Of a stretch of 61,990 nucleotides of DNA, positions 4,942-43,630 are shown piece by piece. The stretch's first letter is position 1. Each line of letters opens with the position of its first letter. This stretch comes from Acholeplasmataceae bacterium (GTDB lineage Bacteria > Bacillota_I > Bacilli_A > Acholeplasmatales > Acholeplasmataceae): assembly GCA_030603805.1 (NCBI GenBank), contig JAUVXD010000010.1, positions 1 to 61,990 on the forward strand. Reading direction: 5' to 3'. Position numbers and translations under genes: made by a program. Below the pieces are notes generated by a model. That model worked only from the letters and a program-made list of their open reading frames with translations, did not search any database and was not told the origin of the DNA.

Positions 4942-6813
4942 CTATCCACCTAAGTTTGCTTCATTAAACGCATCGGTGAGTGCTTGTTGGATGTTACCAT
5001 CACCAAGCATAATACGTTCTAAGGCAAGACCTACTTGAGTTCTAGCTCTTGATGAGCCTACGAATGCTGGATCATAGAAGAAATATCCTGATTGTTGATA
5101 TGCTGCAAGTGCAGTAATCGCAATCGCATTGTTTGGTTGATTTAAGAATGCTGTATACGTTGGGTGTGTATAAGCACTGGTTCTCACTGGGAGGTAACCG
5201 GTGTTAATAGCCCAGTCCATCGTATTTTCAGTGTTAATTAAATGCTTTAAGAATAACCATGAAGCCAGTTGTTCTTGTGATGTACCCTTCGTTAATAAGG
5301 AAATATTCGTACCTTGTTGAATGACAGCACGATCATTTGGACGATCTGCGTTGTATGGAATCGGTGCAACTCCAATTTGGAAGGTTGTTCCTAAAGATGG
5401 GTTTGCTGCATTAAATCCACCAGGAATGTTATATCTAACACCTGCTGATGAACCGAATGTTACATACACTTGACCATTAACAAATGGCGTTGATGCATAT
5501 TGTTGATCCCAGAAGTCTGGTAAAGTGATGATGCTATTATTATCCTTTAAGAATTGCATTGCTGCAAACGTATTTTGGTTGGTGTGCCACAAATATTGGC
5601 CTCTCATGTTGGTGAAGTTGATTGCTGTGTATTGTCCACCAAATTGACGCGTAAATGTAATGAATGCATTACCATTTGAGTCATATGCAGCAGGTCTAAA
5701 CGATGTTGGTGTTTGACCATTTGCATACGCATGGTTTCTTAAGGTTGGTGCCATTGCAATTAGTTCTTGCCATGTAGTTGGTGCAGTAAGACCAAGTGCA
5801 TCAAAGACAGTCTTGTTATAAATCATAACTTCAGTTGATTTATTGAATGGTAGTGAATAGAAAGTACCTGCTAAGTCATATTGGCTGTTTTCTTCGCGAT
5901 ATGCTTGAATAATATCATCAAACGCATCAGCACCATGAAGACCCCAAATGTCGCTATGAATATATGGGTTTAAGTTGACAACAACTTTACCATTTAAATA
6001 TTCAGCCACATGGTCTGGATACCCTTGAACAAGGTTTGGATACGTCCCTGCGGTAATTGCATTGATCATATTTGATCTTAGAGTGTTATAGTTACCAGCA
6101 CTTTCAGCAATCACAACAGTAATGTTAGCACCATGTTCAGTAGCCATCTTTTGTTCGAATGAACGCGCATACTTGTTTAACAGAGCAGTGTTATCTTGGC
6201 CCATCGCATGCCATAACGTAATTGTCATAGGTGCTGTAGATAACGTAAATGGTACTGGACTTTCAGTGACTGTTAAAATGATGGTCACTGTAGTACGTCC
6301 ACCTGCACTATTAGTTGCACGTAAACGAATGGTGTAAGTACCTGGAACTTCAAGATTGTAGTTTCCAAGAACTTCAAGTGTTAAATCATCATCAATAGGG
6401 TCAGTGACTGTGACACCTTGTGTTGGGTTATAGGTACCAGAACCAATATAAAACGTTGGTGTTGGATTGAACCCTGTAATCACCGGAACCGGTGCATCAC
6501 CTGCCACGGTTAAATTGATGGTTACACGTGTGGTTTCACCTGCACTATCTGTAACAGATAAAATGATTTCATAATTTCCTGGGAAATTTTCATCACCTTG
6601 TTCCCATCCTGAAACCGTAATTTGATCGGTTAGATTCCCATCTTCGCGATCTTTTGCTTCTACCCCATCAAGTGGGTTAAATGCTTGTCCAACCTCAATG
6701 GTTGGTGTTAAATTGACGCCTTCGAAATACGGTGCTTGATTTCTACGTGTTGCACACGCAGAGAGCACAAGTATTGCAAGCGCTACTAATACAACTGAAA
6801 ATATTTTCTTCAT
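4942..6813 (-). CDS. carbohydrate ABC transporter solute-binding lipoprotein with two N-terminal Ig-like domains
   Basis: Extracellular solute-binding protein, family 1 (MalE/UgpB type), 623 aa. I place the start at MKKIFS (6813) because GGAGG lies seven bases upstream; six extra in-frame codons upstream are unlikely to be used. Lipobox LSAC follows the signal peptide. Two DUF5011-like Ig domains (about 27-105 and 108-190, each with a D-x-x-D-G/D-DDL motif) precede the binding domain (about 195-623; begins TLWHAMGQDN). These spacers are extra to the usual family length of about 420 aa and may lift the binding domain off the membrane. It is downstream of two permeases and an ATPase, so it is the receptor of the importer. 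Substrate unknown; an oligosaccharide or glycerol-phosphate-type ligand is family inference. Confidence 0.9.
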   Translation of the reverse strand: MKKIFSVVLVALAILVLSACATRRNQAPYFEGVNLTPTIEVGQAFNPLDGVEAKDREDGNLTDQITVSGWEQGDENFPGNYEIILSVTDSAGETTRVTINLTVAGDAPVPVITGFNPTPTFYIGSGTYNPTQGVTVTDPIDDDLTLEVLGNYNLEVPGTYTIRLRATNSAGGRTTVTIILTVTESPVPFTLSTAPMTITLWHAMGQDNTALLNKYARSFEQKMATEHGANITVVIAESAGNYNTLRSNMINAITAGTYPNLVQGYPDHVAEYLNGKVVVNLNPYIHSDIWGLHGADAFDDIIQAYREENSQYDLAGTFYSLPFNKSTEVMIYNKTVFDALGLTAPTTWQELIAMAPTLRNHAYANGQTPTSFRPAAYDSNGNAFITFTRQFGGQYTAINFTNMRGQYLWHTNQNTFAAMQFLKDNNSIITLPDFWDQQYASTPFVNGQVYVTFGSSAGVRYNIPGGFNAANPSLGTTFQIGVAPIPYNADRPNDRAVIQQGTNISLLTKGTSQEQLASWLFLKHLINTENTMDWAINTGYLPVRTSAYTHPTYTAFLNQPNNAIAITALAAYQQSGYFFYDPAFVGSSRARTQVGLALERIMLGDGNIQQALTDAFNEANLGG

Positions 6814-6848
6814 TGTTTCCTCCTTATACAATGTTGTTTCTATTTATA

Positions 6849-6874
6849 TAATCAACGCTGTAAACAGCTGATTA
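6849..6874 (-). other. hairpin between permease and binding-protein genes
   Basis: TAATCA/TGATTA plus GCTG/CAGC pair around a TTTA loop with a two-base bulge. It overlaps the stop codon of the permease gene and has no U-tract. It could limit upstream decay of the binding-protein message. Confidence 0.5.
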
Positions 6875-8281
6875 TCCTTTAGTACCGCTTCTTCCAACAC
6901 CTGACATAATATATTTTTTCAGGGAGAAGAATACGATGAGCAGTGGCACAGTGACCAATGCTGTTGCAGCAAGCTGCAGGTTATAAACGGGTCTTGCATC
7001 TGATCCAGATCCAAGAGTAAAGCTTGTACCTCTAAGTGCAACTGAAATTAACCAGTTTTGTCTAGAAGGTGTAACGAGTTGTGGCCAAATATAAGCATCC
7101 CATGCACCAATCGCACTTAAAATGGTAATGGTAATGATGGTTGGTCTTGCAATTGGAATCATGACTCTTGTTAAATATTTAAAGTCTCCACAACCATCAA
7201 CTTGTGCTGCACGATAGAGCGAATCTGGAATTTGCTTAAATGTTTGACGTAAGAAGAATATATAGAACACGGATGTCATAAATGGGAAGATTAACGCATA
7301 GAATGTGTCATACCATGAAAGCTTAGTGACGGTAATAAAGTTTGTAATGGTATAAAGTTCACCTGGAATCATCATGGTCATTAGGAGCACTGAGAAGATA
7401 AAATCTCTACCCTTAAATTCAAGCCTTGAGAATGCAAATGCTGCAAGTACTGTGGTAATGATGGTTCCTATTGTTGATGTAATCCCAACAAAGATGGTGT
7501 TTCTAATATAGAGTGTAAAGTCAAATCTAGTTAATGCAACCTTGAAGTTAACCCATTGCATCTCAGATAATCCAATAAAGAATCTTGGGTTAAGTGCTGT
7601 GGTTAATTCATCATAGGTTTTAAGAGCTGTAATCATCATCCAGTAGAATGGAATAAAGATGAAGAGTGCGAGTAATGTTAGGAATGAATAGGTGACAACC
7701 AGTCTAATGACTGTTTTCCCAAACTCAATCTTAGTCACTCTTTCTAAATCTTGTTGACTATCAGACATGCCTTTTCTTAAAGCGCGTTTTGCTTTACGCT
7801 TCTCTCTCACTTCAGGATCAAATAGTCCAGCAATGCTACGTCCGAGATCTTTCATGGTTAGAGCAAAACCTTTACCATCGTAAATGACTTTAATTTGAAT
7901 ACCGACTAAGTATCTTAAAACTGCTGATGGGAGATTAAACGTGAAGAAGCTCATAAACATGTAAAGGAATTGTGTGCGATATGTCCATTCATCAATATCC
8001 ACCAAATCCTTACTTCTCAAACGCTTGGTGTTAACAAAAGCTGTTGGTACAAATACAACCAAATAGAAAATCAGTAAGCTGATGGTCAAATTGACTTCCG
8101 GTGTAGAAAGTGTAAATCCAAAGACTTCATAATCTCTAATGATGACATCACTAATGACTGAAGGTACTTGTAAAATGGTAAATAGACGAGACAAAATGAT
8201 AATGGCAATTAAAATATAGGTCCAATCGAGAAGTGTTGCGATAATGTCTAATAATTTGACTTGTTTTGGAATTCTTTTCAT
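6872..8281 (-). CDS. carbohydrate ABC transporter permease, MalG-type, with long N-terminal extension
   Basis: 469 aa. The core permease (about 190-469) has the EAA loop at about 356-380 (YRAAQVDG...IPIARP) that docks with the ATPase, plus six predicted membrane segments. About 185 residues precede it, with three further hydrophobic stretches (about 11-37, 63-83, 101-127) and a basic cytoplasmic segment (about 158-185). Usual MalG-like proteins are about 280 aa, so the extension is unusual. Start has GGAGGGAA upstream and is 12 bases after the stop of the partner permease. It acts as one half of the membrane channel with the MalF-type protein. Confidence 0.9.
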   Translation of the reverse strand: MKRIPKQVKLLDIIATLLDWTYILIAIIILSRLFTILQVPSVISDVIIRDYEVFGFTLSTPEVNLTISLLIFYLVVFVPTAFVNTKRLRSKDLVDIDEWTYRTQFLYMFMSFFTFNLPSAVLRYLVGIQIKVIYDGKGFALTMKDLGRSIAGLFDPEVREKRKAKRALRKGMSDSQQDLERVTKIEFGKTVIRLVVTYSFLTLLALFIFIPFYWMMITALKTYDELTTALNPRFFIGLSEMQWVNFKVALTRFDFTLYIRNTIFVGITSTIGTIITTVLAAFAFSRLEFKGRDFIFSVLLMTMMIPGELYTITNFITVTKLSWYDTFYALIFPFMTSVFYIFFLRQTFKQIPDSLYRAAQVDGCGDFKYLTRVMIPIARPTIITITILSAIGAWDAYIWPQLVTPSRQNWLISVALRGTSFTLGSGSDARPVYNLQLAATALVTVPLLIVFFSLKKYIMSGVGRSGTKG

Positions 8282-8293
8282 GTCGCTTCCCTC

Positions 8294-9376
8294 CTAGTAG
8301 TGTACACGTCGTTTGCCGACATAAAGCTGAACCATGGTAAACATTAAGATAATAATGAATAAGATGATCGCAGCTGCAGATGCATAAGACATCATGCCAT
8401 TAATTCCTGCCATACCGATAAAGTCATAAACATAGAACACAATGGTTTTTAAGTTGATTAGACCCGAGGCACCTGTTGTGATAATACCTTCGGTATTGAT
8501 AATCGCAACAACCGATGTATAGGTTTTAAATCCACCAATGACTGATGTAATTAAGATATAGAAAATCATGGGTGATATTAAAGGTACTGTAATGCGTCTT
8601 AATGCTTTAGATTTACTTGCGCCATCGATTTGAGCTGCTTGATAATATTGTTTATCAATGCCTTGAATGCCAGATAGGAAGACAATAATTTTAAATGCGA
8701 GTCCATTCCAAATGGTATAGATTAAAATAACTGACATCGCTGACCAATAGGTCGCGCCTCTTATACCTTCAGCAATGTTACCCGTACCAAGCCAGATGAT
8801 GGGTCTTGCACCAAACCATACCAAGATTTGATTGACCAAACCTAAGGTTGTGTTAATGGTATTAGCGTTTCCGCTGAACATAAATGCAAAGACTAAACCA
8901 ATCGCGATCGTATTCGTGATATAAGGTAAGAAGAATACCGTTTGATAGAAACCTTTAAGTGGTTTGATGGAAGCAAGTGCAACAGCAATGAATAAGCTGA
9001 TTAATACAGTTGCTGGTACAGTAATTGCAACAATCAATGCTGTATTAATGACTGCTTGTCTAAACCCAGTTGCTTCTAAGATGATGTAACGATAGTTTCC
9101 AATCAGTGTATAATCATCAAACTCTCCTGTTTGAATGTTATAGCCTTCTAGGAATGAAATTAAAAACGAGTTGATAATTGGATAAAATGTGAAGACTGCA
9201 AGGAGCAGGAGTGCTGGAGCAAGATAGAAGATTGCTTTCAGCCAACCTGGCCAATGCACAACAAACCCTAAGCGTTTTCTTTCTAAAAATGCAGTGAATC
9301 GACTGGTGTACTTTCGAATGTAGTTTCTTTTCTTCCAGTTAAACTCACTGAGTGCTAGTCTCAGTTTCTTGATCAT
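8294..9376 (-). CDS. carbohydrate ABC transporter permease, MalF-type
   Basis: 360 aa, six predicted membrane segments starting around 47-70, and the EAA loop at about 245-268 (YQAAQIDGAS...VPLISP). A basic N-terminal stretch of about 45 residues precedes the first membrane segment. The start codon overlaps the stop of the ATPase gene by four bases (ATGA), so translation is probably coupled. Second half of the importer channel. Confidence 0.93.
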   Translation of the reverse strand: MIKKLRLALSEFNWKKRNYIRKYTSRFTAFLERKRLGFVVHWPGWLKAIFYLAPALLLLAVFTFYPIINSFLISFLEGYNIQTGEFDDYTLIGNYRYIILEATGFRQAVINTALIVAITVPATVLISLFIAVALASIKPLKGFYQTVFFLPYITNTIAIGLVFAFMFSGNANTINTTLGLVNQILVWFGARPIIWLGTGNIAEGIRGATYWSAMSVILIYTIWNGLAFKIIVFLSGIQGIDKQYYQAAQIDGASKSKALRRITVPLISPMIFYILITSVIGGFKTYTSVVAIINTEGIITTGASGLINLKTIVFYVYDFIGMAGINGMMSYASAAAIILFIIILMFTMVQLYVGKRRVHY

Positions 9377-10428
9377 ACGACGACGCTTCCATCTTCAGGA
9401 TTAAATAAGTGAATCTTATTTTTCTTTACGCTTAGTTTATGATGATGTGAGCCATCATCAACTGCATCTGAATCGACAAGTGCTCTAATTTGGACATCAC
9501 CTACATTAAATCTGATCATGGTGTCGCGGCCGATATGCTCAGTATCAATGGCTTCAATTTCAAATCCATTAGGATCTGCCTTGAAATCTTCTGGACGCAC
9601 ACCAACAACATAGTTACCATCTTTAGCCTTAGTTGAACCAACAACAAATGTTTCTCCAATAAAGACTTTGCCATCTTTAACTTTGCCATCTAAGATATTA
9701 ATCGGTGGATTACCAAGGAATTTTGCAACAAATAAATTCTTTGGCTTATTATACATTTCTTGAGGTGCAGCCATTTGTTGCTCAAGCCCAAAGTTTAAGA
9801 CGACCATTTGGTCACTAATGCTCATTGCTTCTTCTTGGTCATGCGTGACGAAAATGGTTGTAATTCCGGTTTCTCTTTGAATACGCTTAATTTCTTCTCT
9901 TGTTTGTAGACGTAGTCTAGCATCAAGGTTAGAAAGTGGTTCATCAAGTAATAAAACTCTTGGTTTTTTAACTAGAGCGCGTGCAATCGCGACTCTTTGT
10001 TGTTGTCCGCCAGATAATTGTGCTGGCTTTTTGTCTAATTGGTCTTCAATCCCAACCAGTTTAGCCATTTCATCAACAAGTTCTAACGCCTCTTGACGTT
10101 TGATGTTAATGTTTTCTAGTGGAAACATAATGTTTTGACGAACAGTCATGTGTGGATAAAGTGCATAGTTTTGGAAAACAAGTCCAATGCCTCTTTTCTC
10201 AGGTGCAAGACGTGTGACATCATCTTCGCCAAAGAAAATTTTCCCTCCTGATGGTTTGTGTAAGCCTGCAATCATAAAAAGTGTTGTGGATTTTCCACAT
10301 CCAGAAGGACCAAGAAGTCCGACCAATTTCCCTGAGGGGATTGTGATGGATAGGTTATCAACGGCAACAGTTTCCTTGCCAGTTTTGTCGGTAAAGATTT
10401 TCGTTAAACCCTCTAATCTAATCTCCAT
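9373..10428 (-). CDS. carbohydrate ABC transporter ATPase (UgpC/MsmX/MalK type)
   Basis: 351 aa. Walker A GPSGCGKST (40-48), Q-loop FQNY (85-88), signature LSGGQQQR (138-145), Walker B LLLDEP (about 159-164) and H-loop His196 are all present, followed by a C-terminal TOBE/MalK-like domain (about 240-351). It energises the two permeases encoded next in the operon. ATPases of this class often serve several sugar importers. The start has AAAGGAG 13 bases upstream, a rather long gap, but the MEIRLEGL start fits the family. First gene after a regulated promoter region. Confidence 0.94.
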   Translation of the reverse strand: MEIRLEGLTKIFTDKTGKETVAVDNLSITIPSGKLVGLLGPSGCGKSTTLFMIAGLHKPSGGKIFFGEDDVTRLAPEKRGIGLVFQNYALYPHMTVRQNIMFPLENINIKRQEALELVDEMAKLVGIEDQLDKKPAQLSGGQQQRVAIARALVKKPRVLLLDEPLSNLDARLRLQTREEIKRIQRETGITTIFVTHDQEEAMSISDQMVVLNFGLEQQMAAPQEMYNKPKNLFVAKFLGNPPINILDGKVKDGKVFIGETFVVGSTKAKDGNYVVGVRPEDFKADPNGFEIEAIDTEHIGRDTMIRFNVGDVQIRALVDSDAVDDGSHHHKLSVKKNKIHLFNPEDGSVVV

Positions 10429-10817: not shown

Positions 10818-11663
10818 TTATAAATCTCTTAACGCGTTTTTGACGTAATTGGGTAATGCAAATGATCCCACGTGTAGCTCCTTGTTATAATACTTAGTTT
10901 GATACCCGATGGATTGAATAAGTGGTGTCTTCATATCTAAAATGGGATGATAGACCTTAGATGCAAACCCAAATAACCAGTGCCCAGAAGGATAAGTCGG
11001 TATAAATGCTTGATAGACTTCAACAATCGGGAAAATAGATTTAATTTTTTTATGTGCACGTTTCATTTCTGTTGATTCTTTTTCGAAATATGGACTTTCG
11101 TGTTGATTAATCAAAATGCCATCTTTGGATAAGATGCGATAACAGTTTTCATAGAAAGCCATTGAAAATAAACCTTCACCTGGGCCAACTGGATCTGTTG
11201 AATCCACAACAATCAAATCATAAGTTTTTTTAGTGTTTTTGACATAAGCAAGTCCATCTTCAAACATTAAGGTAACTCTTGGGTCATGAAGACCTGTTGT
11301 AGTGATTTCGAAATATGTTTGACAAGCTCTTACAACACGCTCATCAATTTCAACCATATCAATGGATTTGATGGATGGATATCTGACAAGTTCTCTCACT
11401 GAACCCCCATCTCCTCCACCAATGACCAAAACGTGTTCTATTTGAGGATTGACTGACATCGGGGTATGAATCATCATCTCATGATAGATGAATTCATCTT
11501 TTTCATTGGCCATCATGATACCATCTAGTGTAAAAAATCTACCCAATTCAAAGGAATCGTAGATTTCGAGTTGTTGAAAAGGTGTTGTTTCACTGTATAG
11601 ATGTTCTTTAATTTTAACGGAAAACTTAATGTGTGGTGTCCACGCTTCTGTAAACCAGCTCAT
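10818..11663 (-). CDS. speE: spermidine synthase
   Basis: 281 aa polyamine aminopropyltransferase. It transfers an aminopropyl group from decarboxylated S-adenosylmethionine to putrescine. Visible: N-terminal beta domain (1-55), Rossmann methyltransferase-like fold with GGGDGG (83-88 region), acidic MVEID binding motif, and VVDSTDPVGPGEGLF with the catalytic Asp. GTAGGAGG lies upstream of the ATG. It follows speD by 10 bases, so the two enzymes making spermidine are co-transcribed. Length is normal for the family. Confidence 0.95.
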   Translation of the reverse strand: MSWFTEAWTPHIKFSVKIKEHLYSETTPFQQLEIYDSFELGRFFTLDGIMMANEKDEFIYHEMMIHTPMSVNPQIEHVLVIGGGDGGSVRELVRYPSIKSIDMVEIDERVVRACQTYFEITTTGLHDPRVTLMFEDGLAYVKNTKKTYDLIVVDSTDPVGPGEGLFSMAFYENCYRILSKDGILINQHESPYFEKESTEMKRAHKKIKSIFPIVEVYQAFIPTYPSGHWLFGFASKVYHPILDMKTPLIQSIGYQTKYYNKELHVGSFALPNYVKNALRDL

Positions 11664-11673
11664 GAAATACCTC

Positions 11674-12474
11674 CTACTTCATTTGTGGTATATTCATACC
11701 ATAAAAAATCTCTGCGATTTCTTTATTAATCTCAGACTTGATTTGAATTTTTTCTGCTTCGGTTAAGTCATTGGAAGTAATGTTAAAGATATAATTATCT
11801 AGATTAAACTGATTGAGCATCATTTTGGTGTGAAAAATATTGGAATGATCTAAATTAATGTCAATGGATGTGTATTTACTCAGTGTATCTTTAGCAATAT
11901 AATCTTGAATCGATGTGATGTTGTGATCCATATAGTGCTTGTTGCCTTCTAAATCTCTTGTAAATCCACGAATGCGATAATCCATGATGATGACATCAGA
12001 ATCGAATGAACCGATGAGATAATCGAGTGCCTTAATTGGGGATATTTTCCCACAGGTTGAAACATCAATATCGACTCTAAATGTTGAGATGTTTTGATCC
12101 GGATGAGATTCGGGATATGTATGAACTGTCACATGACTTTTATCTAGATGAGCAACAACAGAATCTTTGCATAAAGTCTCGCCATTGCACGAAGGATCTC
12201 TAACCTCATCAGGTACTTTTTCTTCTGCGATGAGTAATGTGACACTAGCACCTTGTGGATTATAATCTTGTCTTGCAATATTTAGAATATTGGCATCGAT
12301 GATATGTGTGACATCCGCTAGTATTTTAGTGAGTCTTTCAGAATTATATTGCTCGTCAATATATTCGATATAAGCTTTGCGTTCAGCTTCAGTCCTTGTA
12401 TAACAAACATCATAGATGTTAAAACTGAGTGTTTTAGTGAGATTGTTAAAGCCATAAAGTTTGATTTTTTCCAT
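11674..12474 (-). CDS. speD: S-adenosylmethionine decarboxylase proenzyme
   Basis: 266 aa, of the long E. coli-like SpeD class rather than the short Bacillus/Thermotoga SpeH class. It supplies the aminopropyl donor for SpeE. The self-cleavage site is visible as [16 protein letters not shown]: cleavage before Ser113 creates the pyruvoyl cofactor. Other family phrases are [17 protein letters not shown] and RGFTRD. GGAGG precedes the ATG. A TATAAT-like box at 12498-12503 on the minus strand, without a good -35, may be its promoter. Confidence 0.95.
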
Positions 12475-12577: not shown

Positions 12578-12610
12578 AAAGGTGAACGTCCCTTTGGGAA
12601 ATTCACCTTT
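12578..12610 (-). terminator. terminator of the hydrogenase operon
   Basis: AAAGGTGAA/TTCACCTTT (9 bp) plus an inner TCCC/GGGA stem and TTT loop. On the minus strand an interrupted U-rich run follows. It sits between the end of the permease gene (12646) and speD, closing the long hydrogenase operon. Confidence 0.85.
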
Positions 12611-12645
12611 CTTGACTACCTACAAAAAGGCAGATAGTTGTTTAT

Positions 12646-13365
12646 TTATTCACTCATTTTTTTGATTGCATATTCAAGTCCAAATGCGATGATAATAAGC
12701 ATGATTGTCCATGCGAATACGAGGTCATAATTCAAATTCACTCGTGCAAGATAGAGTGCATTACCAATAGAGTTTGGTGTTTGTGCAAGATACTCTGCCA
12801 TAATTAAAACTTTAATGCCTAAACTAAAGGATTGCATAAATGATAATATGATGTTTTTCTTAAGCATCGGATAATATACGAGTTTAATCCCTAGCCATAA
12901 ATCTGTTTTCTCAAGATGATAGACATCAATCAATTCTAAATCTAAATGTCTTACACCTTCGAGAGATGCTTGATAGATGATTGGAAAAATCATTAGCCAT
13001 GTGATTGCAAATGGGGCAAGCTGATACCCAAGCATAATGAGTAAAATAACAATGATTGAAATGACTGGTATTGTTCTTAAAATAGTGATGTAAGGCGCTA
13101 TTAGAAATGATGTTTTAGGATGAAAGCCTGAATAAACACCAAAGATAACGCCTGTGATAGCTGCAATACCCAAAATTAAAATGAGTCTACCTATCGTTGA
13201 TGTGAGTGCTCTAAGCCAAATCGGTGTTGAAATGATTTTAGTTAATCCATTTAAAACATCTAAAGGGCTTGGCATAATGAGTGCATGATCAATCCATAGA
13301 TATAAGATTATCCAAAGAATCAGTAAAACAAAGGCTGCTTGAATGCCACTTATGTATTTTTTCAT
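12646..13365 (-). CDS. ABC transporter permease, SsuC/TauC (NMT1-associated) type
   Basis: 239 aa membrane protein with about six hydrophobic segments. The EAA-like loop (about 150-170, ending KLVYYPMLKK) predicts docking with an ATPase. It begins within a four-base overlap with the lipoprotein gene before it. No ATPase gene follows or precedes, so the transporter is incomplete here. Its place at the tail of the hydrogenase operon suggests a substrate linked to that enzyme or its cofactors, but nothing in the sequence identifies it. Alternatives within the family include thiamine-precursor, sulfonate, riboflavin-like or metal-complex uptake. Confidence 0.85.
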   Translation of the reverse strand: MKKYISGIQAAFVLLILWIILYLWIDHALIMPSPLDVLNGLTKIISTPIWLRALTSTIGRLILILGIAAITGVIFGVYSGFHPKTSFLIAPYITILRTIPVISIIVILLIMLGYQLAPFAITWLMIFPIIYQASLEGVRHLDLELIDVYHLEKTDLWLGIKLVYYPMLKKNIILSFMQSFSLGIKVLIMAEYLAQTPNSIGNALYLARVNLNYDLVFAWTIMLIIIAFGLEYAIKKMSE

Positions 13366-14273
13366 GGGAGTACCTTCAAATAAAAATCATCTGCGGGTAG
13401 AATACCACCAATTTGTGAGGGTTGATTTGCCAAGATTAATGAAAAATAGAAAGTGATTGCATCTTTTGAATCTTTTCCTTCGATAAACATGATATGTTGA
13501 TCACATAGTGATAAGATGGCTGCACTTAAGTTAAAAACTGGATTTTGTTCAATCATGTAAGCCAAAGATTGTTCTGGATTCTCATATAAGGTATTAATAG
13601 AGGCTTTTAAATCTTGTGCAATCTTTATTTTTAAGCTTTGTGATAAGGCTCTTTTAACAAAGACACCAGCTTGAGGGATACGTTCTATCCCAGTAATCTC
13701 AAAATATGCTTGTTGAATGGATAAGGATTTCAAATTTGAATGTGTTAACTTAAGCATGGAATAATTGGGTTCAGCAACCAAAACAATCTTTTGAGGATCT
13801 ATGCTGAACTCAGCTGTTGCAGAGGATAAACTGTCGACATAATTGATAGATACGTTTAAATTGAGTTCAGAAAACAAATAATTGATGATGATATCAGCAG
13901 TTTGATTTCTACCGAATAATACAACAGATTTCCCCTCTAAATCTTCAAAACTTAAAATATCTTGTCTGTTTGTTACAAAGTAAAAGTTTCCCCAAATGAC
14001 TGTAGCTAGCAACTCATAATCAGGTTTTGTCTCATACATCTTTGCACCTAAAGTAAGCGGTGCAAAAATAACATCATGTGATCTTGAACCAAAGGCTGCG
14101 ATTAAAGGATCTGCCCCTTGAATGACATCTACTTGATAAGATAATGTATCTTTTTCTAAAAGATGCTGACTCATTTGGGTGCTACCAAAAGGAACTATCA
14201 CTTTGATTGTTTCAGTCTTTTGACATGCTGATAGCACCAAGATGAAGATCAGTAGGTAACATAACTTCTTCAT
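13362..14273 (-). CDS. ABC transporter substrate-binding lipoprotein, NMT1/TauA-like
   Basis: 303 aa. Lipobox LSAC (Cys16) follows a short signal peptide. The body looks like a periplasmic-binding fold of the NMT1/THI5/SsuA class (segments IKVIVPFGSTQ, SFEDLEGKSVVLFG, VAEPNYSML). It starts eight bases after the hydA stop with AAGGAG upstream, so it belongs to the hydrogenase transcript. It pairs with the permease that follows. The ligand cannot be read from the sequence; the fold assignment is moderately sure. Confidence 0.8.
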   Translation of the reverse strand: MKKLCYLLIFILVLSACQKTETIKVIVPFGSTQMSQHLLEKDTLSYQVDVIQGADPLIAAFGSRSHDVIFAPLTLGAKMYETKPDYELLATVIWGNFYFVTNRQDILSFEDLEGKSVVLFGRNQTADIIINYLFSELNLNVSINYVDSLSSATAEFSIDPQKIVLVAEPNYSMLKLTHSNLKSLSIQQAYFEITGIERIPQAGVFVKRALSQSLKIKIAQDLKASINTLYENPEQSLAYMIEQNPVFNLSAAILSLCDQHIMFIEGKDSKDAITFYFSLILANQPSQIGGILPADDFYLKVLP

Positions 14274-14281
14274 GAAACTCC

Positions 14282-16048
14282 TTATAAGGACTTAATTTTG
14301 GAATAAGATGATCGTTTTTGATAATGTGTATGTAGTAATTCGTGAGACAAATGACTGTTAGGCTTGCCTAAAAATTCTTGATATAGTTCTTGGACATACT
14401 TATTTTGATGTGATTTTCTAAACTCACTACTTTGATCAAGTTGGTATAATACTGAAGCTCTTAGAGATCTCACATCAAGTTTTTCACTACGTTTCGCATC
14501 AACAACAGGTTGTCCGCCACCATTAATACATCCGCCAGTGCATCCCATAATTTCAACAAAATGATACTTTTTGTCATGCTTGTTCATTTCATCAATAAAT
14601 GCACCAATTGCTTTACCCCCATGAACAACAGCCACATGAACTGGTTTTCCTTGAATCATATAGGTTGCTTCTTTAATGTCTGAATTTCCTCTAAGTTCAG
14701 TAAAATCAATGGGTGTCGATTGTCCTTCAAGAATTTCAGTAACCGTTCTAAGTGCTGCTTCCATCACGCCACCCGTTGCACCAAAAATAGTGCCGGCACC
14801 TGTGTAACTCGAAAGCATACCAAAAGGTTTAATTGGCCATAAATTTTTAAAGTCTATCTTTTTTCTTTTAATCAGTCTTGCGAGTTCTCTTGTTGTTAAA
14901 ACGATATCGACATCACGGTAACCCTCACGGCCCATATCTGGTCTTCTGGCTTCCTCTTTCTTAGCAATACAAGGCATAATTGAAACTGAAACGATATCTT
15001 TTGGATCGAAATTTAGTTTCTTAGCATAATGTGTTTTAATGAGTGCGCCAGCCATTTGTTGAGGTGATTTACATGTCGATAAATTAGGAATTAACTCCGG
15101 ATGATAAAGTTCTAAATAATTGACCCACCCTGGAGAACAAGACGTAAACATAGGAAATGGACCACCATTTTCTAAGCGATGAATAAATTCAGTCCCCTCT
15201 TCTAAAATCGTTAGATCAGCAGTAAAATTCGTATCCATAATTTCATCAAATCCAATGGCCTTGAGGGCTGCAAACATTTGACCTTCAACGTTGGTTCCAA
15301 TCGGATAGCCAAACTCTTCGCCAAGTGTTGCACGAACCGATGGGGCAACCTGAACGATCACTTTTTTACTTGGATTACGCAGTGCATATTCCACTGCTCG
15401 AATATCATCTTTTTCAGATAAAGCACCCGTTGGACACGCTTGAATACACTTGCCACAATAGATACACCCTGCATCTTCTAAACTATGGAAAAGTGCTGGT
15501 CCAATATAAGTTTCTGAACCTCGTTCATTGTAGTTTAAAATACCAAGTCCTGTGAACTTTTCACATGCTGAAACACATCTGCCACACAAGATACATTTGC
15601 TCGAATCAATGGTCATCACACCAGAAGAATCTGAAACATAAATGGGAACTCCATGAGGTCCATAAAGATGGGTAAGTTCGTTTTCAATTGAGTATCTTCT
15701 CAGTAAATCTAAGAATTCACAACTATCTTCTCTCGAGCAATTAAAGCATTCAAAATGGTGTTTATGAGAAAGAAGTTGTAAGTTCATGGTGACTGTTTGG
15801 TAAACATCAATATCATCTGTAACAACTTTCATACCTTCATCACATAGGGTTCTACATGCAGGTTTTAATGACTTTTGGTTATTAATTTTAACTGAACAAA
15901 CCCGACAATTTCCCTCTTCATGAATGCCTTCAAAATAACATAATCTTGGGATATAAATACCATTGGCTTCAGCGGCTTTTAAAATGGTTTGATTTGATTT
16001 TGCGATGATCGTCTGACCATTAATTTCTATCTTAACATCTTTGATCAT
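14282..16048 (-). CDS. hydA: [FeFe]-hydrogenase catalytic subunit (HydA, NAD-linked multimeric type)
   Basis: 588 aa. It reduces protons to H2 with electrons from NADH and probably ferredoxin. In order: plant-type [2Fe-2S] domain (Cys37, 48, 51, 65), a His/Cys [4Fe-4S] site (His98, Cys101, 104, 110), two [4Fe-4S] sites (about 152-205), then the H-cluster domain with TSCSPGW (302-308), MPCIAKKEE (358-366) and EIMGCTGGC (499-507), and a C-terminal small-subunit-like tail ending HELLHTHY. Length and domain order match HydA/HndD of trimeric enzymes. In the first motif Ser305 takes the place of the second Cys of TSCCPxW. The start overlaps the hydB stop by four bases. HydE/F/G maturases must be elsewhere. 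Confidence 0.93.
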   Translation of the reverse strand: MIKDVKIEINGQTIIAKSNQTILKAAEANGIYIPRLCYFEGIHEEGNCRVCSVKINNQKSLKPACRTLCDEGMKVVTDDIDVYQTVTMNLQLLSHKHHFECFNCSREDSCEFLDLLRRYSIENELTHLYGPHGVPIYVSDSSGVMTIDSSKCILCGRCVSACEKFTGLGILNYNERGSETYIGPALFHSLEDAGCIYCGKCIQACPTGALSEKDDIRAVEYALRNPSKKVIVQVAPSVRATLGEEFGYPIGTNVEGQMFAALKAIGFDEIMDTNFTADLTILEEGTEFIHRLENGGPFPMFTSCSPGWVNYLELYHPELIPNLSTCKSPQQMAGALIKTHYAKKLNFDPKDIVSVSIMPCIAKKEEARRPDMGREGYRDVDIVLTTRELARLIKRKKIDFKNLWPIKPFGMLSSYTGAGTIFGATGGVMEAALRTVTEILEGQSTPIDFTELRGNSDIKEATYMIQGKPVHVAVVHGGKAIGAFIDEMNKHDKKYHFVEIMGCTGGCINGGGQPVVDAKRSEKLDVRSLRASVLYQLDQSSEFRKSHQNKYVQELYQEFLGKPNSHLSHELLHTHYQKRSSYSKIKSL

Positions 16049-17859
16049 AAGAAGGCCTCCTCTTGATGAATAGGTACACTAATGATAGACTTCACAGGGC
16101 ATGCTGTCTTACAAGCGCCACAACGAATACATGTCTCTAAATTAATTTCATGTTTGTCTTTAATCCAACCGGTAATTGCGTTTACTGGGCAGTTTCTCGC
16201 ACATTTACCGCACCCAATACATGTGTCATCAATCACGAAATTCGTGAGTTCTCGACACACGCCTGCTTTACAAACACGTTGTTCAACATGGTCTAAATAT
16301 TCTTGTCTAAAATGCTTTAAAGTTGATAAAACTGGATTTGGTGCTGTTTGACCTAAACCACATAAAGACGTATCCTTAATCATATGAGCAAGCTTTTCAA
16401 GTTCGTCAATATCTTTGAGTGTGCCATACCCTTCACAGATGCGATCTAAAATATCTTTCATTTGCTTTGTACCTTCCCTACAGGGTGTACATTTGCCACA
16501 AGATTCATCGACCGTGAAGTCTAAATAAAATCTTGCTACATCGACCATACAGTTGTCTTCATCCATAATGATCATCCCGCCAGATCCCATCATAGATCCA
16601 AGTGCGGTTAAATTTTCAAAGTCAATAGGTGTGTCTAAATCTTTTTCTGTGATACATCCACCAGAAGGTCCACCAGTTTGAACAGCTTTAAACTTTCTCT
16701 TATTTGGAATACCGCCACCAATATCATAAATCACTTCTCTCAGTGTTGTGCCCATAGGGACTTCAACAAGTCCTGTATTCATGATTTTTCCACCTAATGC
16801 AAACACTTTAGTGCCACTTGATTTTTCAGTTCCAATCGCTTTAAACCACTCAGGTCCTTTAAGAAATATGACTGGAATATTGGCTAATGTTTCAACGTTA
16901 TTCACATTGGTTGGTCTTCCCCATAAACCTTTGATTGCAGGAAAAGGTGGCTTTAATCTTGGCATGCCACGTTCGCCTTCAATGGACGCAATGAGTGCAG
17001 TTTCTTCACCACATACGAAGGCACCCGCTCCAAGCCTAATATCAATATCAAAATTGAAATCAGTTCCAAAAAGATTCTTTCCAAGTAGACCATAATGACG
17101 TGCTTGATCGATGGCAATATGAAGTCTTTCAACAGCAACTGGATACTCAGCACGCACATAAATAAACCCTTGATCTGCGCCAATAGCGTATCCACAAATC
17201 GCCATCGCTTCTAAAACCGAATGCGGATCTCCTTCTAAAATAGCACGGTCCATAAATGCACCTGGGTCCCCTTCATCGGCATTACAAATCACATATTTTC
17301 GATCGGATGCTGAGTCATGTGCAAACTGCCATTTTCTACCTGTTAAGAATCCCCCACCACCGCGACCTCGAAGACCTGAATGAATCATGTCATCAATGAC
17401 TTGTTGTGGTGTTTTATTGATTAAAATTTCACCGAGTGCACGGTATCCTTCTTTAGCAATATACTCATTGATATCCATCGGATTGATATTGCCACAATTT
17501 CTTAAGGCTATTCTCTTTTGCTTAGAGTAGAACTTAAGCTGATTAATATTTTTAATTTGTGTTTTGTCCAAAGGATTTTTCATCATCAATCTTTTAACTG
17601 GTCTACCTTTTAAAAGGTGTTCTGTACAAATTTCTTTAACATCTTCTAAGGTGACGTGCGTATAAAAAGTTTCATCTGGATAAACGATGACGACTGGCCC
17701 TTTTTCACATAAACCAAAACAACCTGTCAGAACTAAACCAACTTCGTTTTGTAAATCTATAGCTTTTAACTCTTCTGTAAATAAGTCTTTAATTTGCTTG
17801 GATTTAGAGGATAGACATCCTGTGCCCCCACAAATCAGTACTTGAATTCTTTCTAACAT
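16045..17859 (-). CDS. hydB: hydrogenase NADH/FMN subunit, NuoF-like
   Basis: 604 aa flavoprotein subunit that exchanges electrons with NAD(H). N-terminal thioredoxin-like [2Fe-2S] domain (Cys10, Cys15 and later Cys pair, about 1-90), 51-kDa FMN/NADH domain (GRGGGGFLTGRKW about 170; NADEGDPGAFMDR), SLBB region, a [4Fe-4S] site ESCGKCTPCREG near 450-462, and two C-terminal ferredoxin clusters (CIGCGKCARNCP, CIRCGACKTACP). This is the HydB/HndC layout of electron-bifurcating or NAD(P)-dependent [FeFe]-hydrogenases. It follows the [2Fe-2S] gene by nine bases. Confidence 0.94.
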   Translation of the reverse strand: MLERIQVLICGGTGCLSSKSKQIKDLFTEELKAIDLQNEVGLVLTGCFGLCEKGPVVIVYPDETFYTHVTLEDVKEICTEHLLKGRPVKRLMMKNPLDKTQIKNINQLKFYSKQKRIALRNCGNINPMDINEYIAKEGYRALGEILINKTPQQVIDDMIHSGLRGRGGGGFLTGRKWQFAHDSASDRKYVICNADEGDPGAFMDRAILEGDPHSVLEAMAICGYAIGADQGFIYVRAEYPVAVERLHIAIDQARHYGLLGKNLFGTDFNFDIDIRLGAGAFVCGEETALIASIEGERGMPRLKPPFPAIKGLWGRPTNVNNVETLANIPVIFLKGPEWFKAIGTEKSSGTKVFALGGKIMNTGLVEVPMGTTLREVIYDIGGGIPNKRKFKAVQTGGPSGGCITEKDLDTPIDFENLTALGSMMGSGGMIIMDEDNCMVDVARFYLDFTVDESCGKCTPCREGTKQMKDILDRICEGYGTLKDIDELEKLAHMIKDTSLCGLGQTAPNPVLSTLKHFRQEYLDHVEQRVCKAGVCRELTNFVIDDTCIGCGKCARNCPVNAITGWIKDKHEINLETCIRCGACKTACPVKSIISVPIHQEEAFL

Positions 17860-17868
17860 AAGTGGTCC

Positions 17869-18237
17869 CTATCCCTTTCTAGTCGTCAGTAAATGACGCT
17901 CTAATGGTTGATGATTGACCAGATGTTTTTCAACAATCTCTTTAACGATAGGCACAGTGAGACTACAATAGACAAAAGATTGTCCTGACTCATCAATGAT
18001 TTCAGCCATGGGTTCATAAGCACATTCCCCCATACATCCTACTTGAGTCACACTGACATTGGATAACTCTTTTTCACTAATCGCTTCTAAGAATGCTGCA
18101 AGTATAGGCCTTGCACCTGATGCAATTCCACAAGTTCCCATGCCGACTTGGATTCTAAATCCGTCCTTTAAATAGCGAACATTCATTTTTTTAAGGGATT
18201 CATCTCTTAATTTCTTTAAATCTTCTAATGATTTCAT
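17869..18237 (-). CDS. thioredoxin-like [2Fe-2S] protein, HndB-like
   Basis: 122 aa. A helical N-terminus (about 1-25) precedes a thioredoxin-like [2Fe-2S] fold with GTCGIASGA (Cys36), GCMGECAYEP (Cys68, Cys72) and Cys at about 90. Small proteins of this type sit in NAD(P)-linked [FeFe]-hydrogenase operons, as HndB does, and probably carry electrons or bind HydB. The cluster ligands are inferred from the motif. The start overlaps the upstream ATPase gene by four bases. Confidence 0.82.
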   Translation of the reverse strand: MKSLEDLKKLRDESLKKMNVRYLKDGFRIQVGMGTCGIASGARPILAAFLEAISEKELSNVSVTQVGCMGECAYEPMAEIIDESGQSFVYCSLTVPIVKEIVEKHLVNHQPLERHLLTTRKG

Positions 18238-18779
18238 ACTGCACCTCGCACTTGATTAATTTCTTGATTCATGTATTCGATTAAAGCTTGAATGACAGGA
18301 TAATCGAAAAGTGTTTCTTTAAATATTTCTGTTAATTTAGACTTTTTAAATGTGACTTTTTTTTCTTTAACCTTATAGACAAAAATGAACTCTTTGACAT
18401 CTTGATGAATGATAATCGTATAGATGAGTTCTCCGAGGTTTCCGATTAAGGGCATATCAATCGATAAGGGGTTAAAGTTAAGTGTCAATGATGTGCCATA
18501 ACCAAGCTTGGACTCAATCAAAAAGGAGCCATCGGTTTGTTCGGTTAGCATTTTAATCAAAGGTAGACCTAAGCCGACCTTTCTTGTGGTTCTTGTTGTA
18601 TAAAATGGAGAATCTACTAAGGCAAGTAATTCTTTACTCATGCCCTTGCCGTTATCTTTAATCACAACTTTAAGCATCTGATCGAGCTCGATAGATAGCG
18701 TGATCAGTTTAGCCTCAGCTCGAATTGAATTCTGGATTAAATCGAGTAAATAGTCAGCTAGATTATCCATGTTTAACAT
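18234..18779 (-). CDS. GHKL ATPase-domain protein (histidine-kinase-like, no phosphoacceptor domain)
   Basis: 181 aa. N-box with Asn17 (DLIQNSIRA), G1 motif DNGKGMS and G2 motif GLGLPLI are clear, so ATP binding is expected. There is no His-containing dimerisation domain and no membrane segment, unlike a complete sensor kinase. The remaining 80 residues are not recognised. Similar stand-alone ATPases occur in [FeFe]-hydrogenase operons of anaerobic Firmicutes (from memory). It overlaps the PHP gene by 17 bases; MDNL at 18770 is an alternative start. A regulatory role is inference. Confidence 0.8.
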   Translation of the reverse strand: MLNMDNLADYLLDLIQNSIRAEAKLITLSIELDQMLKVVIKDNGKGMSKELLALVDSPFYTTRTTRKVGLGLPLIKMLTEQTDGSFLIESKLGYGTSLTLNFNPLSIDMPLIGNLGELIYTIIIHQDVKEFIFVYKVKEKKVTFKKSKLTEIFKETLFDYPVIQALIEYMNQEINQVRGAV

Positions 18780-19464
18780 AGTTAAAGAAAGCTTCTATCG
18801 ATAAACTTTCAAGTTCAATTTTATTTTTTTCGGTTCTTTCTAGCATCTCTGTAATGGTATGAGCATCCGAATTGTGAAACTTGATTTGAGACGCAATTTC
18901 TTTTTCTAATATAAGATTGGGATTGACGTGTAAAGAAAACTCAATGCCATCAAGTGGTTTTTCTTTAACATAAGGCATCGCCCCATGTTTTTTGCGATCT
19001 GCGTGTGCATAAACAAGGATATGATCATAGGAGGATAGACTCAAAACCAAGTCATCGATCGAAAGGTCAACAAAAGGAGAGAGGTCAAACGGATAGATGT
19101 CAATCACTTCATCATAGATGTTTGTGATTTCTTGGTCTTTGTATAAACTTTTGTCATATCCCTGTTTATGGATAAACGATTCTAAATAGGTATCATAACT
19201 CAGTGCATCTTCAACATGCTTGAAGTAAACAAGCACATGACAGCCTTCTTTGACAGATATTTCAACACCAGGGATAAATAAGATATCGTAACTTTCAGAA
19301 ATTTCCTTGCAAACTTTTATTTGCTTTAAGGAATTATGATCTGTGATTGCGATGATATCAAGTCCCTTAAGTTTTGCCATATTAAAGATATTATGAGGTG
19401 TCATGAGTTCATCTGCACATGGTGAAAGCACCGTATGAATGTGCAAATCATAGTAATAAATCAT
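18763..19464 (-). CDS. PHP-domain phosphoesterase
   Basis: 233 aa. Metal-binding motifs are visible: DLHIHT (His8, His10), ITDHNS (about 41-46), an internal Glu, YAHADRKKHG and a closing NSDAHT. This matches TrpH/YciV-type PHP proteins, which hydrolyse nucleoside phosphates or short RNA. Here it lies between regulatory-domain genes and the hydrogenase subunits, as in other hydrogenase operons I recall, so the substrate may be a signalling nucleotide; that is inference. It overlaps both neighbours by a few bases. Confidence 0.85.
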   Translation of the reverse strand: MIYYYDLHIHTVLSPCADELMTPHNIFNMAKLKGLDIIAITDHNSLKQIKVCKEISESYDILFIPGVEISVKEGCHVLVYFKHVEDALSYDTYLESFIHKQGYDKSLYKDQEITNIYDEVIDIYPFDLSPFVDLSIDDLVLSLSSYDHILVYAHADRKKHGAMPYVKEKPLDGIEFSLHVNPNLILEKEIASQIKFHNSDAHTITEMLERTEKNKIELESLSIEAFFNYVKHG

Positions 19465-19793
19465 AGGAGTCCTCGTTGATAAAGATCAATAATCACTTCA
19501 TGACTTTTTAAATGGGTAGAGATTAAAGCGATGTTTTCTTGATTCGCACGATCAATCATATCTTTAAAGACTTTTCTATCTTCAGTGATAATAATGCCTG
19601 GAAGATCAATCATCATGGCGAGTGCAACTGTATTTAAAGAAGAAATGATAGTAATCAGCATGTTCCCCACATCAGCACTTTTAATTGCTGCACTCAGTAA
19701 ATCTGTTTGATAACATCCTTTAAACGATAAATCTGATGTATGTTGATTTGTTAAGAGTTGATAGTCTTTCGTTAAAATATCATGGATTTTCAT
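19461..19793 (-). CDS. DRTGG-domain protein (second copy)
   Basis: 110 aa. Resembles the DRTGG domain, a small ligand-binding fold seen beside CBS domains and in Pta-like proteins. Features: ADVGNMLITIISSLNTVALAMM core and a C-terminal ISTHLKSHEVIIDLY. Shares the general plan of the 127-residue protein at 20206-20589 but is clearly diverged. Four-base overlaps on both sides show tight coupling. Ligand and partner unknown. Confidence 0.7.
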   Translation of the reverse strand: MKIHDILTKDYQLLTNQHTSDLSFKGCYQTDLLSAAIKSADVGNMLITIISSLNTVALAMMIDLPGIIITEDRKVFKDMIDRANQENIALISTHLKSHEVIIDLYQRGLL

Positions 19794-20212
19794 GAAATTC
19801 CCTCCAAGAAAAACATGATAATTAAATGTGTGCCTTCAGGACTTGTTCGAATCTCTAAATGATCCGCAGTTCGTTTAATATTAGGTAAACCCATGCCAGC
19901 ACCAAAGCCATTGGCATGGTCTAGTTCATTTGCCGTTGAATATCCTTCAGTCATGGCAAGATCAAGATTCATAATGCCTGGACCATCATCCATAAATTCT
20001 AAAACAATTTTTTCATGGTCCATGTGAAACGTGGCGTATCCCCCAACTGAATGAATCACCACATTAATCTCTGCTTCATATGAAGCTGCGCAAACACGTT
20101 TCAAAAGAAGAGGTGATAAATTCATTGTTTTGAGCGTTCTTTTGATATCACTGGAGGCTCTACCAGCCAAATCATAGTTCTTTGCTATGATTTGATATTC
20201 TTTGTCTACCAT
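19790..20212 (-). CDS. anti-sigma-factor-like GHKL ATPase (RsbW/SpoIIAB-like)
   Basis: 140 aa. Alpha-beta GHKL fold with EAEINVVIHS (N-box), DDGPGI (G1) and GMGLPNI (G2). Proteins of this family bind and phosphorylate an antagonist or sequester a sigma factor. No sigma factor or STAS antagonist is encoded nearby; instead it is flanked by two DRTGG proteins. This flanking suggests that these three form a switch, but that is inference. Seven-base overlap with the gene before it. Confidence 0.82.
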   Translation of the reverse strand: MVDKEYQIIAKNYDLAGRASSDIKRTLKTMNLSPLLLKRVCAASYEAEINVVIHSVGGYATFHMDHEKIVLEFMDDGPGIMNLDLAMTEGYSTANELDHANGFGAGMGLPNIKRTADHLEIRTSPEGTHLIIMFFLEGIS

Positions 20213-20589
20213 TGGTGATTATATAAAATCCCTTTAATGCCCTCTTGAAACATCAGACCACTCATATTAAACATCGTATGTTCAGTTGAAAAGAGCATCA
20301 CGCCAGATTCCAAAGCTAAATCAACAACTTTGAGCGAAGGGATTTTTCCGCGTACTAAAAGGACAACATCTACATCAAGCATTTCAGCAGTTCGAACTGA
20401 TTGATTGGTTGCAAGTCCAGTAATTAACATACTTTCTTTCAAAATTCTTTCATCTTTCACAGAATTTAAAATCATCAAGGCATCACTCATCAAATCCGAA
20501 CAAAAAGCGAAATTGACATCTTTATCTTTAAAATTTTCAGGGGTGTAATTTTTAAAGTTATACTTTGAAATGAGATCACTGAGTTTCAT
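20206..20589 (-). CDS. DRTGG-domain protein (first copy)
   Basis: 127 aa. DRTGG-like fold: VNFAFCSDLMSDALMIL, SMLITGLATNQSVRTAEM, VDVVLLVRGK and a C-terminal VMLFSTEHTMFNMSGLMF. Its start lies inside the end of hydC (14-base overlap), so it is translated with the hydrogenase subunit. It is probably a small-molecule sensor; no catalytic residues were recognised. Confidence 0.72.
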   Translation of the reverse strand: MKLSDLISKYNFKNYTPENFKDKDVNFAFCSDLMSDALMILNSVKDERILKESMLITGLATNQSVRTAEMLDVDVVLLVRGKIPSLKVVDLALESGVMLFSTEHTMFNMSGLMFQEGIKGILYNHQW

Positions 20590-21079
20590 TGTGGACCGCT
20601 TCCTTCATTTCTTTGATGACTTGTTTCGACTTTTGAACACTTGCATTGCCAATGATTTGATCATCAATGGCAAAAACAGGTGCAAGCCCACAAGCACCAA
20701 TACATCTTGTAGCAACCAAAGTGAACTCACCATCTTTGGTTGTTCCCCCCGATTTGACTTTAAGCATGTCTTCTAAAGTATCCATGATGTTTTGCGATCC
20801 TTTAACGTAACATGCTGTTCCCAAACAGACCCCAACTGTCTTTTTACCTTTAGGCGTCACTGAAAAATTGCCATAAAAAGTCACGACACCATTAATCTTA
20901 GCAATACTTTCGTTAAGTTCTTCAGAAATGATTTTCTGAATAGAAAGTGGGATATAACCAAAGATGGTTTGTGCGTCATGAAGCGTTGGCATTAAAGGTC
21001 CTGGAAGCTTCTTGTTTTGCTCGATTCGAGCGTGAAAAAGAGCGAGCTTATCGCTAGTAATCCGCGAATGTCCGTGCAT
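20576..21079 (-). CDS. hydC: hydrogenase [2Fe-2S] subunit, NuoE-like
   Basis: 167 aa, 24-kDa complex-I-like subunit. Helical N-terminus (about 15-75), then a thioredoxin-like [2Fe-2S] domain with CLGTACYVKG and TRCIGACGLAP (the four Cys ligands, about 104-147). It passes electrons between HydB and HydA. First gene of the operon, with GAGGAG upstream. A TATAAT-like box at 21118-21123 (minus strand) without a convincing -35 may be the promoter. Confidence 0.93.
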   Translation of the reverse strand: MHGHSRITSDKLALFHARIEQNKKLPGPLMPTLHDAQTIFGYIPLSIQKIISEELNESIAKINGVVTFYGNFSVTPKGKKTVGVCLGTACYVKGSQNIMDTLEDMLKVKSGGTTKDGEFTLVATRCIGACGLAPVFAIDDQIIGNASVQKSKQVIKEMKEAVHNETQ

Positions 21080-43406: not shown

Positions 43407-43412
43407 GAAGAT

Positions 43413-43592
43413 AACACGTTAAAGAACATAGTACTTCAAGGGCTAGTTTAGAGAGATCACGGTTGGTGCAAGTGATTCAATGCCATGAAGGAATCCACTC
43501 TTTTTAGTGATGCTAATCCCATCCGTATGCCTGCGTTAAAGGTCTAAAGTGCTAGAATATTTTCTAGAACTAAGGTGGTACCGCGTTATATT
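43413..43592 (+). promoter_or_regulatory. T-box riboswitch controlling serS
   Basis: T-box core AAGGTGGTACCGCG at 43572-43585. Specifier candidate TCC (Ser) at 43494-43496, followed by A. The antiterminator part is almost the same as in the asnS leader on the other side of the origin. It should sense uncharged tRNA-Ser. Confidence 0.93.
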
Positions 43593-43630
43593 GACGTCCT
43601 TAGAGTTTTCTTTGGGCGTTTTTTTTTTTT
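43593..43630 (+). terminator. T-box leader terminator (serS)
   Basis: ACGTCC pairs with GGGCGT (one G-U) and a run of more than ten T follows. It is the default structure when tRNA-Ser is charged. Confidence 0.88.

Follow-up and report, generated by a model that had tools for sequence, protein, structure and literature searches.

The 61,990-nucleotide stretch of Acholeplasmataceae DNA analyzed here (the window) carries an [FeFe]-hydrogenase operon on its minus strand, running from the nuoE start at 21079 to the permease end at 12646 (Table 1). In transcriptional order the genes encode NuoE, a small conserved protein, a HATPase, an HPr-kinase-N/DRTGG-like protein, a PHP protein, a second HATPase, a thioredoxin-like ferredoxin, NuoF, HydA, a substrate-binding protein (SBP), and a permease. 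The SBP gene follows hydA after 8 bases, and its stop overlaps the start of the permease gene, the last of the operon, in the sequence ATGA. An earlier note, made from the letters of the window, had given the coordinates, strand, gene order, 8-base gap, and position before the terminator of these last two genes, and all of these are confirmed, as is its remark that the pair comes with no ATPase gene; none lies in the operon. No riboswitch adjoins the SBP gene in the window or in 15 mostly unlinked loci, and a Rex-box scan gave chance-level matches only.

The hydrogenase operon is followed directly downstream by the spermidine genes speD and speE (window 10818-12474) and, beyond these, by a sugar-type ABC operon at 4942-10428 that encodes an SBP with Ig-like domains, two permeases, and a UgpC-type ATPase. 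A T-box leader lies at 43409-43604 on the plus strand.

Table 1. Features of the hydrogenase operon and its surroundings (window positions)
Feature	Position	Strand	Remark
UgpC/MalK-type ABC ATPase, neighboring sugar-type ABC operon	9373..10428	-	one of several shared-ATPase candidates
Terminator hairpin with U-rich tail at operon end	about 12578..12612	-	fold z -5.4, strong
SsuC/TauC-like ABC permease, 239 aa	12646..13365	-	closest curated family SaoP, far below cut-off
Lipoprotein SBP, 303 aa	13362..14273	-	same family as PDB 3hn0 (Parabacteroides distasonis BDI_1369)
hydA, group A6-like [FeFe] hydrogenase	14282..16048	-	motifs TSCSPGW / MPCxxKxxE / ExMGCxGGC
NuoF-like flavoprotein subunit of hydrogenase, HydB type	16045..17859	-	
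Thioredoxin-like [2Fe-2S] ferredoxin	17869..18237	-	weak match
HATPase_c protein, hydrogenase-associated regulatory module	18234..18779	-	
PHP-domain protein, hydrogenase-associated regulatory module	18763..19464	-	
HPr-kinase-N/DRTGG-like protein	19461..19793	-	below Pfam cut-off
HATPase_c_2 anti-sigma-like protein	19790..20212	-	
Conserved operon protein, 127 aa	20206..20589	-	no Pfam match
NuoE-like [2Fe-2S] subunit, encoded first in the operon	20576..21079	-	

The binding protein, the permease, and their ATPase

The SBP carries a lipobox cysteine, C17, that is invariant in 34 homologues. Against Pfam the protein stays below the cut-off for every family (PF02621 comes nearest, at 24.6 of 26 bits), and the NMT1 model (PF09084) finds no match in its genome, although the SBP has that fold and its homologues in relatives do match NMT1. 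No curated family claiming the SBP was found; individual homologues match SaoX and SaoB weakly. An AlphaFold model (pLDDT 95) falls clearly, by structure comparison, among the SBPs of the SsuA/NrtA/ThiY group. The closest structure is 3hn0 (Z 32.1 over 269 residues), followed by SsuA (Z 23.8), PqqT, MqnD, and CmpA (21.2), and a profile of the 34 homologues retrieves 3hn0 at E 4e-36. The permease matches BPD_transp_1 (41.4 bits) and, as next-best families, TauC/SsuC. It scores 51.6 bits against SaoP (NF040733), for which the cut-off is 295, and all 30 permease homologues likewise match SaoP weakly. The model and the invariant C17 bear out the earlier description of an NMT1/TauA-like lipoprotein, and the BPD_transp_1 and TauC/SsuC matches that of an SsuC-like permease. 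By SBP fold, lipobox, and SsuC/TauC/NrtB-type permease the pair is a NitT/TauT-type importer for which no cognate ATPase was recognized at the loci examined.

Those loci comprise most of the 55 ABC ATPase domain matches in the genome, and none of the proteins examined closely resembles the ATPases that accompany the hydrogenase in relatives (30-37% identity), a result consistent with the earlier suggestion that the ATPase is encoded elsewhere or shared. The best profile match, a protein of 221 aa, was rejected as the dedicated ATPase of the importer because it is no close homologue and sits with an FbpB/ThiP-like permease of its own. Relatives carry an SsuB-like ATPase: two loci (L135/L136) hold a complete SBP-permease-ATPase operon with the entire hydABC regulatory module after it, and in a third (L139) the ATPase lies beside hydA and the SBP-permease pair. 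Since the complete set is joined to hydABC in these other lineages, the ATPase here appears to have been lost or to be shared. Sharing with another ABC system is possible, for example with the putatively multitask MalK/UgpC-type protein of the neighboring sugar-type operon. At one further locus (G020, L087:8389-13360) the genes that come after SBP, permease, and ATPase encode a HypB/UreG-like GTPase, another ABC ATPase, and another SBP; the sole hydrogenase match of that genome is weak.

Linkage and co-occurrence with hydA

Among the 61 nearest genomes, the present one included, the SBP occurs in 43 and adjoins hydrogenase genes in 29 of these (again counting the present one). The earlier note had named a pair always found away from hydrogenase genes in relatives as the pattern that would speak against its idea, and these counts do not show it. 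hydA adjoins the SBP gene in every SBP-bearing member of the genus (in G004 as a fragment only, at a contig end and on the opposite strand), in six further members of family f1, and in three of f5; in G036 the pair diverges from nuoE-nuoF-hydA. A seemingly SBP-less member of the genus has a contig that ends just after hydA (G014, L131). The order hydA-SBP-permease is conserved in the genus and in much of the order. Given that it is kept genus-wide at an SBP identity of roughly 36-47%, the arrangement is far above chance. In families f2, f3, and f4 the pair lies away from hydA, beside housekeeping genes (PGK/TPI, MetK/PK), and usually also without an ATPase. A Crp/Fnr-family protein of ∼205 aa is encoded beside the SBP gene in many families, mostly divergently, and is probably its regulator (L132:7665-8297; L133, L134, L137, L138, L141, L143, L144, L145, L148).

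Co-occurrence was assessed in a sample of 296 genomes of the class, with a strong SBP match defined as E up to 4e-20; weak matches (E 1e-3 to about 1e-19, mainly in family f14) were excluded from the main counts as probable paralogues, and counts were copied by hand into scripts for the statistics. A strong SBP is present in 149 genomes and an [FeFe] hydrogenase in 185. Both occur in 146, the SBP only in 3, hydA only in 39, and neither in 108 (Fisher p 7e-43, a value that, like the others given here, is inflated by the kinship of the genomes and should not be read as if these were independent events). Put differently, 146 of the 149 SBP-bearing genomes have the hydrogenase, versus 39 of the 147 others. 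Where both positions are listed, the SBP gene lies no more than 12 kb from hydA in 44 of 112 genomes, versus about 1.5% expected, and co-occurrence persists where the genes are unlinked. Placements around hydA vary, with the SBP gene upstream, downstream, or convergent; the inspected neighborhoods, picked for closeness, illustrate this variety and not its frequency.

A hydrogenase without recognized maturases

Assembly of the H-cluster, the iron-carbonyl-cyanide active site of the enzyme, is held to require HydE, HydF, and HydG. HydG is matched in 0 of the 61 nearest genomes. True HydF, searched for in the same 61, likewise exceeds the cut-off in none: matches of ∼90 bits cover the GTPase domain only, whereas true HydF elsewhere in the class scores about 550 bits. 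The HydE match of the present genome reaches 29 bits against a cut-off of 254.6, and across the class sample HydG occurs in 20 and HydE in 23 of 296 genomes. The SBP follows the complementary pattern. Among the 185 hydA-bearing genomes it is present in 140 of the 162 that lack HydE/HydG versus 6 of the 23 that carry them (Fisher p 5e-9; p 0.003 when stratified by family). Real within-family contrast exists in f16 and f17 only, where the SBP occurs without versus with HydE/G in 9/10 versus 1/9 and 4/5 versus 1/6 genomes, respectively, or 13/15 versus 2/15 for the two families together.

HypD belongs to the other known pathway by which CN and CO ligands of iron are made. It was detected in only 6 of 296 class genomes, and Hyp-type ligand synthesis was therefore rejected as a general replacement for HydEFG; no nitrogenase-like protein exceeds the cut-off in the 61 nearest genomes. 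Three SBP-less genomes of family f17, G211 (L221:1-10501 with L177:785-5387), G222 (L222), and G318 (L223), have hydA and a cluster with a nifH-like gene, two pairs resembling nitrogenase component 1, and hypF, hypD, hypE, hydF, and hydE, with hypC seen in L223 and no hydG. In G211 hydA lies directly upstream (L221). Such a cluster is possibly a HydG-free H-cluster pathway with Hyp-made CO/CN ligands.

The hydrogenase itself retains H-cluster residues seen in working enzymes. Its ligand motifs L1, L2, and L3 read TSCSPGW, MPCIAKKEE, and EIMGCTGGCINGGGQP, as in catalytic group A enzymes, and its closest solved structure, Acetobacterium woodii HydA1, has the identical TSCSPGW motif. HydA aligns with CpI at MPCxxKxxE, the methionine and cysteines of the third motif, the APSVR and SPQQ segments, and two proton-path glutamates. 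Gly replaces Ala before the third-motif Cys in many HydA members, those of HydG-bearing genomes included. A degenerate enzyme is unlikely, since A. woodii HydA1 and genomes with HydG share the TSCSPGW motif. The conserved diiron pocket speaks for continued binding of a diiron site by HydA.

Tentatively, and with somewhat less than even confidence, we propose that the pair is the SBP and permease of an importer dedicated to the [FeFe] hydrogenase, which would bring in the diiron moiety of the H-cluster, or else a committed precursor, CO/CN-bearing or other, and so replace HydEFG. The import would allow apo-HydA to mature in bacteria without HydE, HydF, and HydG; insertion after uptake would be spontaneous, and ATP hydrolysis would be provided by an ATPase shared with another ABC system. 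Several lines of evidence point this way: operon linkage, deep conservation, co-occurrence with hydA, the lack of recognized maturases, complementarity with HydE/G, the intact HydA site, the occurrence in relatives of a pair complete with its ATPase, and the match, though weak, of all 30 permeases to SaoP of a proposed organometallic system. Cells are known to take up synthetic diiron complexes, which then activate apo-HydA even when maturases are absent; uptake and spontaneous insertion are therefore chemically feasible. Linkage and co-occurrence thus support the earlier proposal that the imported compound serves the hydrogenase, its maturation, or its regulation, and maturation is favored among the three because HydE, HydG, HydF, and HypD are missing; from this evidence we infer function, including cargo, direction of transport, insertion, and ATPase sharing.

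Other observations count against import of a diiron unit. Six genomes carry maturases and the SBP together, in family f14 there are 13 hydA-bearing genomes without HydE/G and without a strong SBP, and in f2, f3, and f4 the pair is not linked to hydA. We know of no documented free diiron cofactor in nature. Peloplasma aerotolerans (genome G005) is reported to produce acetate, ethanol, and CO2, and H2 is not listed in the part of the published account on which this statement draws (PMC11122141). The most specific form of the proposal, natural uptake of a preassembled [2Fe] subcluster scavenged from hydrogen-producing neighbors and inserted into apo-HydA without maturases, is unlikely.

An alternative with a real if minor share of the probability is that the importer supplies an ordinary nutrient for the hydrogenase or its operon partners, such as a flavin precursor, a sulfur compound, or an iron chelate, while other enzymes replace the maturases. 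Small anions and vitamins are the known ligands of the fold family, which includes SsuA, TauA, CmpA, and binders of thiamin precursors and PQQ; HydABC requires FMN and Fe-S clusters, and a novel maturation system could be encoded elsewhere. Yet no riboswitch lies beside the pair, and the presence of the SBP goes with hydA and with a lack of HydE/G, not with genome reduction at large: only 3 of 111 hydA-minus genomes have it. It is improbable that HydA never receives a [2Fe] subsite and acts as a redox sensor or reductase for which the ABC system imports a substrate or signal. The absence of HydEFG would fit such a role, and for the HydA of Rhodospirillum rubrum, which likewise has no maturases, inactivity or a different function has been considered probable (PMC4967309), but the ligand motifs and most of the active-site surroundings are as in the working A. 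woodii HydA1 and CpI, and within the genus HydA is ∼80% identical versus ∼45% for the SBP. Less probable again is an indirect link, in which a general anaerobe nutrient importer accompanies a strictly anaerobic, ferredoxin-based metabolism with hydrogenase; the housekeeping neighborhoods of f2-f4 would suit it, but it fits neither the recurring proximity of the pair to hydA across several families and gene arrangements nor the complementarity with HydE/G inside f16 and f17.

Well over a hundred species of one class thus combine an intact H-cluster site with no HydEFG genes as far as tested, and the importer occupies the place of HydEFG in the gene-content pattern. This suggests that many wall-less and gut Bacilli, which have a hydrogenase but not the known maturation genes, draw on their surroundings for the cofactor or one of its building blocks. 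Should the importer serve maturation, microbes would be sharing organometallic cofactors as they do vitamins, a maturase-free route to active hydrogenase would exist, and genome-based predictions of H2 production would change. The cultured hosts Peloplasma aerotolerans and Paracholeplasma vituli make the idea directly testable.

Relation to known systems

Importers of the NitT/TauT type (SsuABC, TauABC, NrtABCD/CmpABCD, ThiXYZ, RibXY) share with the present pair the SBP fold and an SsuC/TauC-type permease. The pair differs from them in having no local ATPase, in its linkage to an [FeFe] hydrogenase, and in an SBP that belongs to no curated family. The structural-genomics entry 3hn0 (BDI_1369, “nitrate transport protein”) is of the same sequence family, with the EP, Q, and C-terminal GGxLPDxxF features kept, but its host is a Bacteroidota species. 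A further likeness is to the proposed selenocysteine-assisted organometallic (SAO) system with SaoP, SaoB, and SaoX (PMC13188914): the permease matches SaoP, but with a score far below the SaoP cut-off.

The open-access literature yielded no report of an ABC transporter with an [FeFe] hydrogenase, nor of bacterial hydrogenases without HydEFG that match this case. The importer is proposed to serve the same end as HydEFG maturation, a mature H-cluster, in a setting that differs from HydEFG systems in that HydG and true HydF are absent from the 61 nearest genomes and HydE/HydG from most hydA-bearing genomes of the class. To our knowledge, no importer has been described for the hydrogenases of maturase-poor protists or of R. 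rubrum. In these organisms, too, HydA occurs without one or more maturases (PMC4967309), whereas lack of maturases is the rule in the bacterial class studied here.
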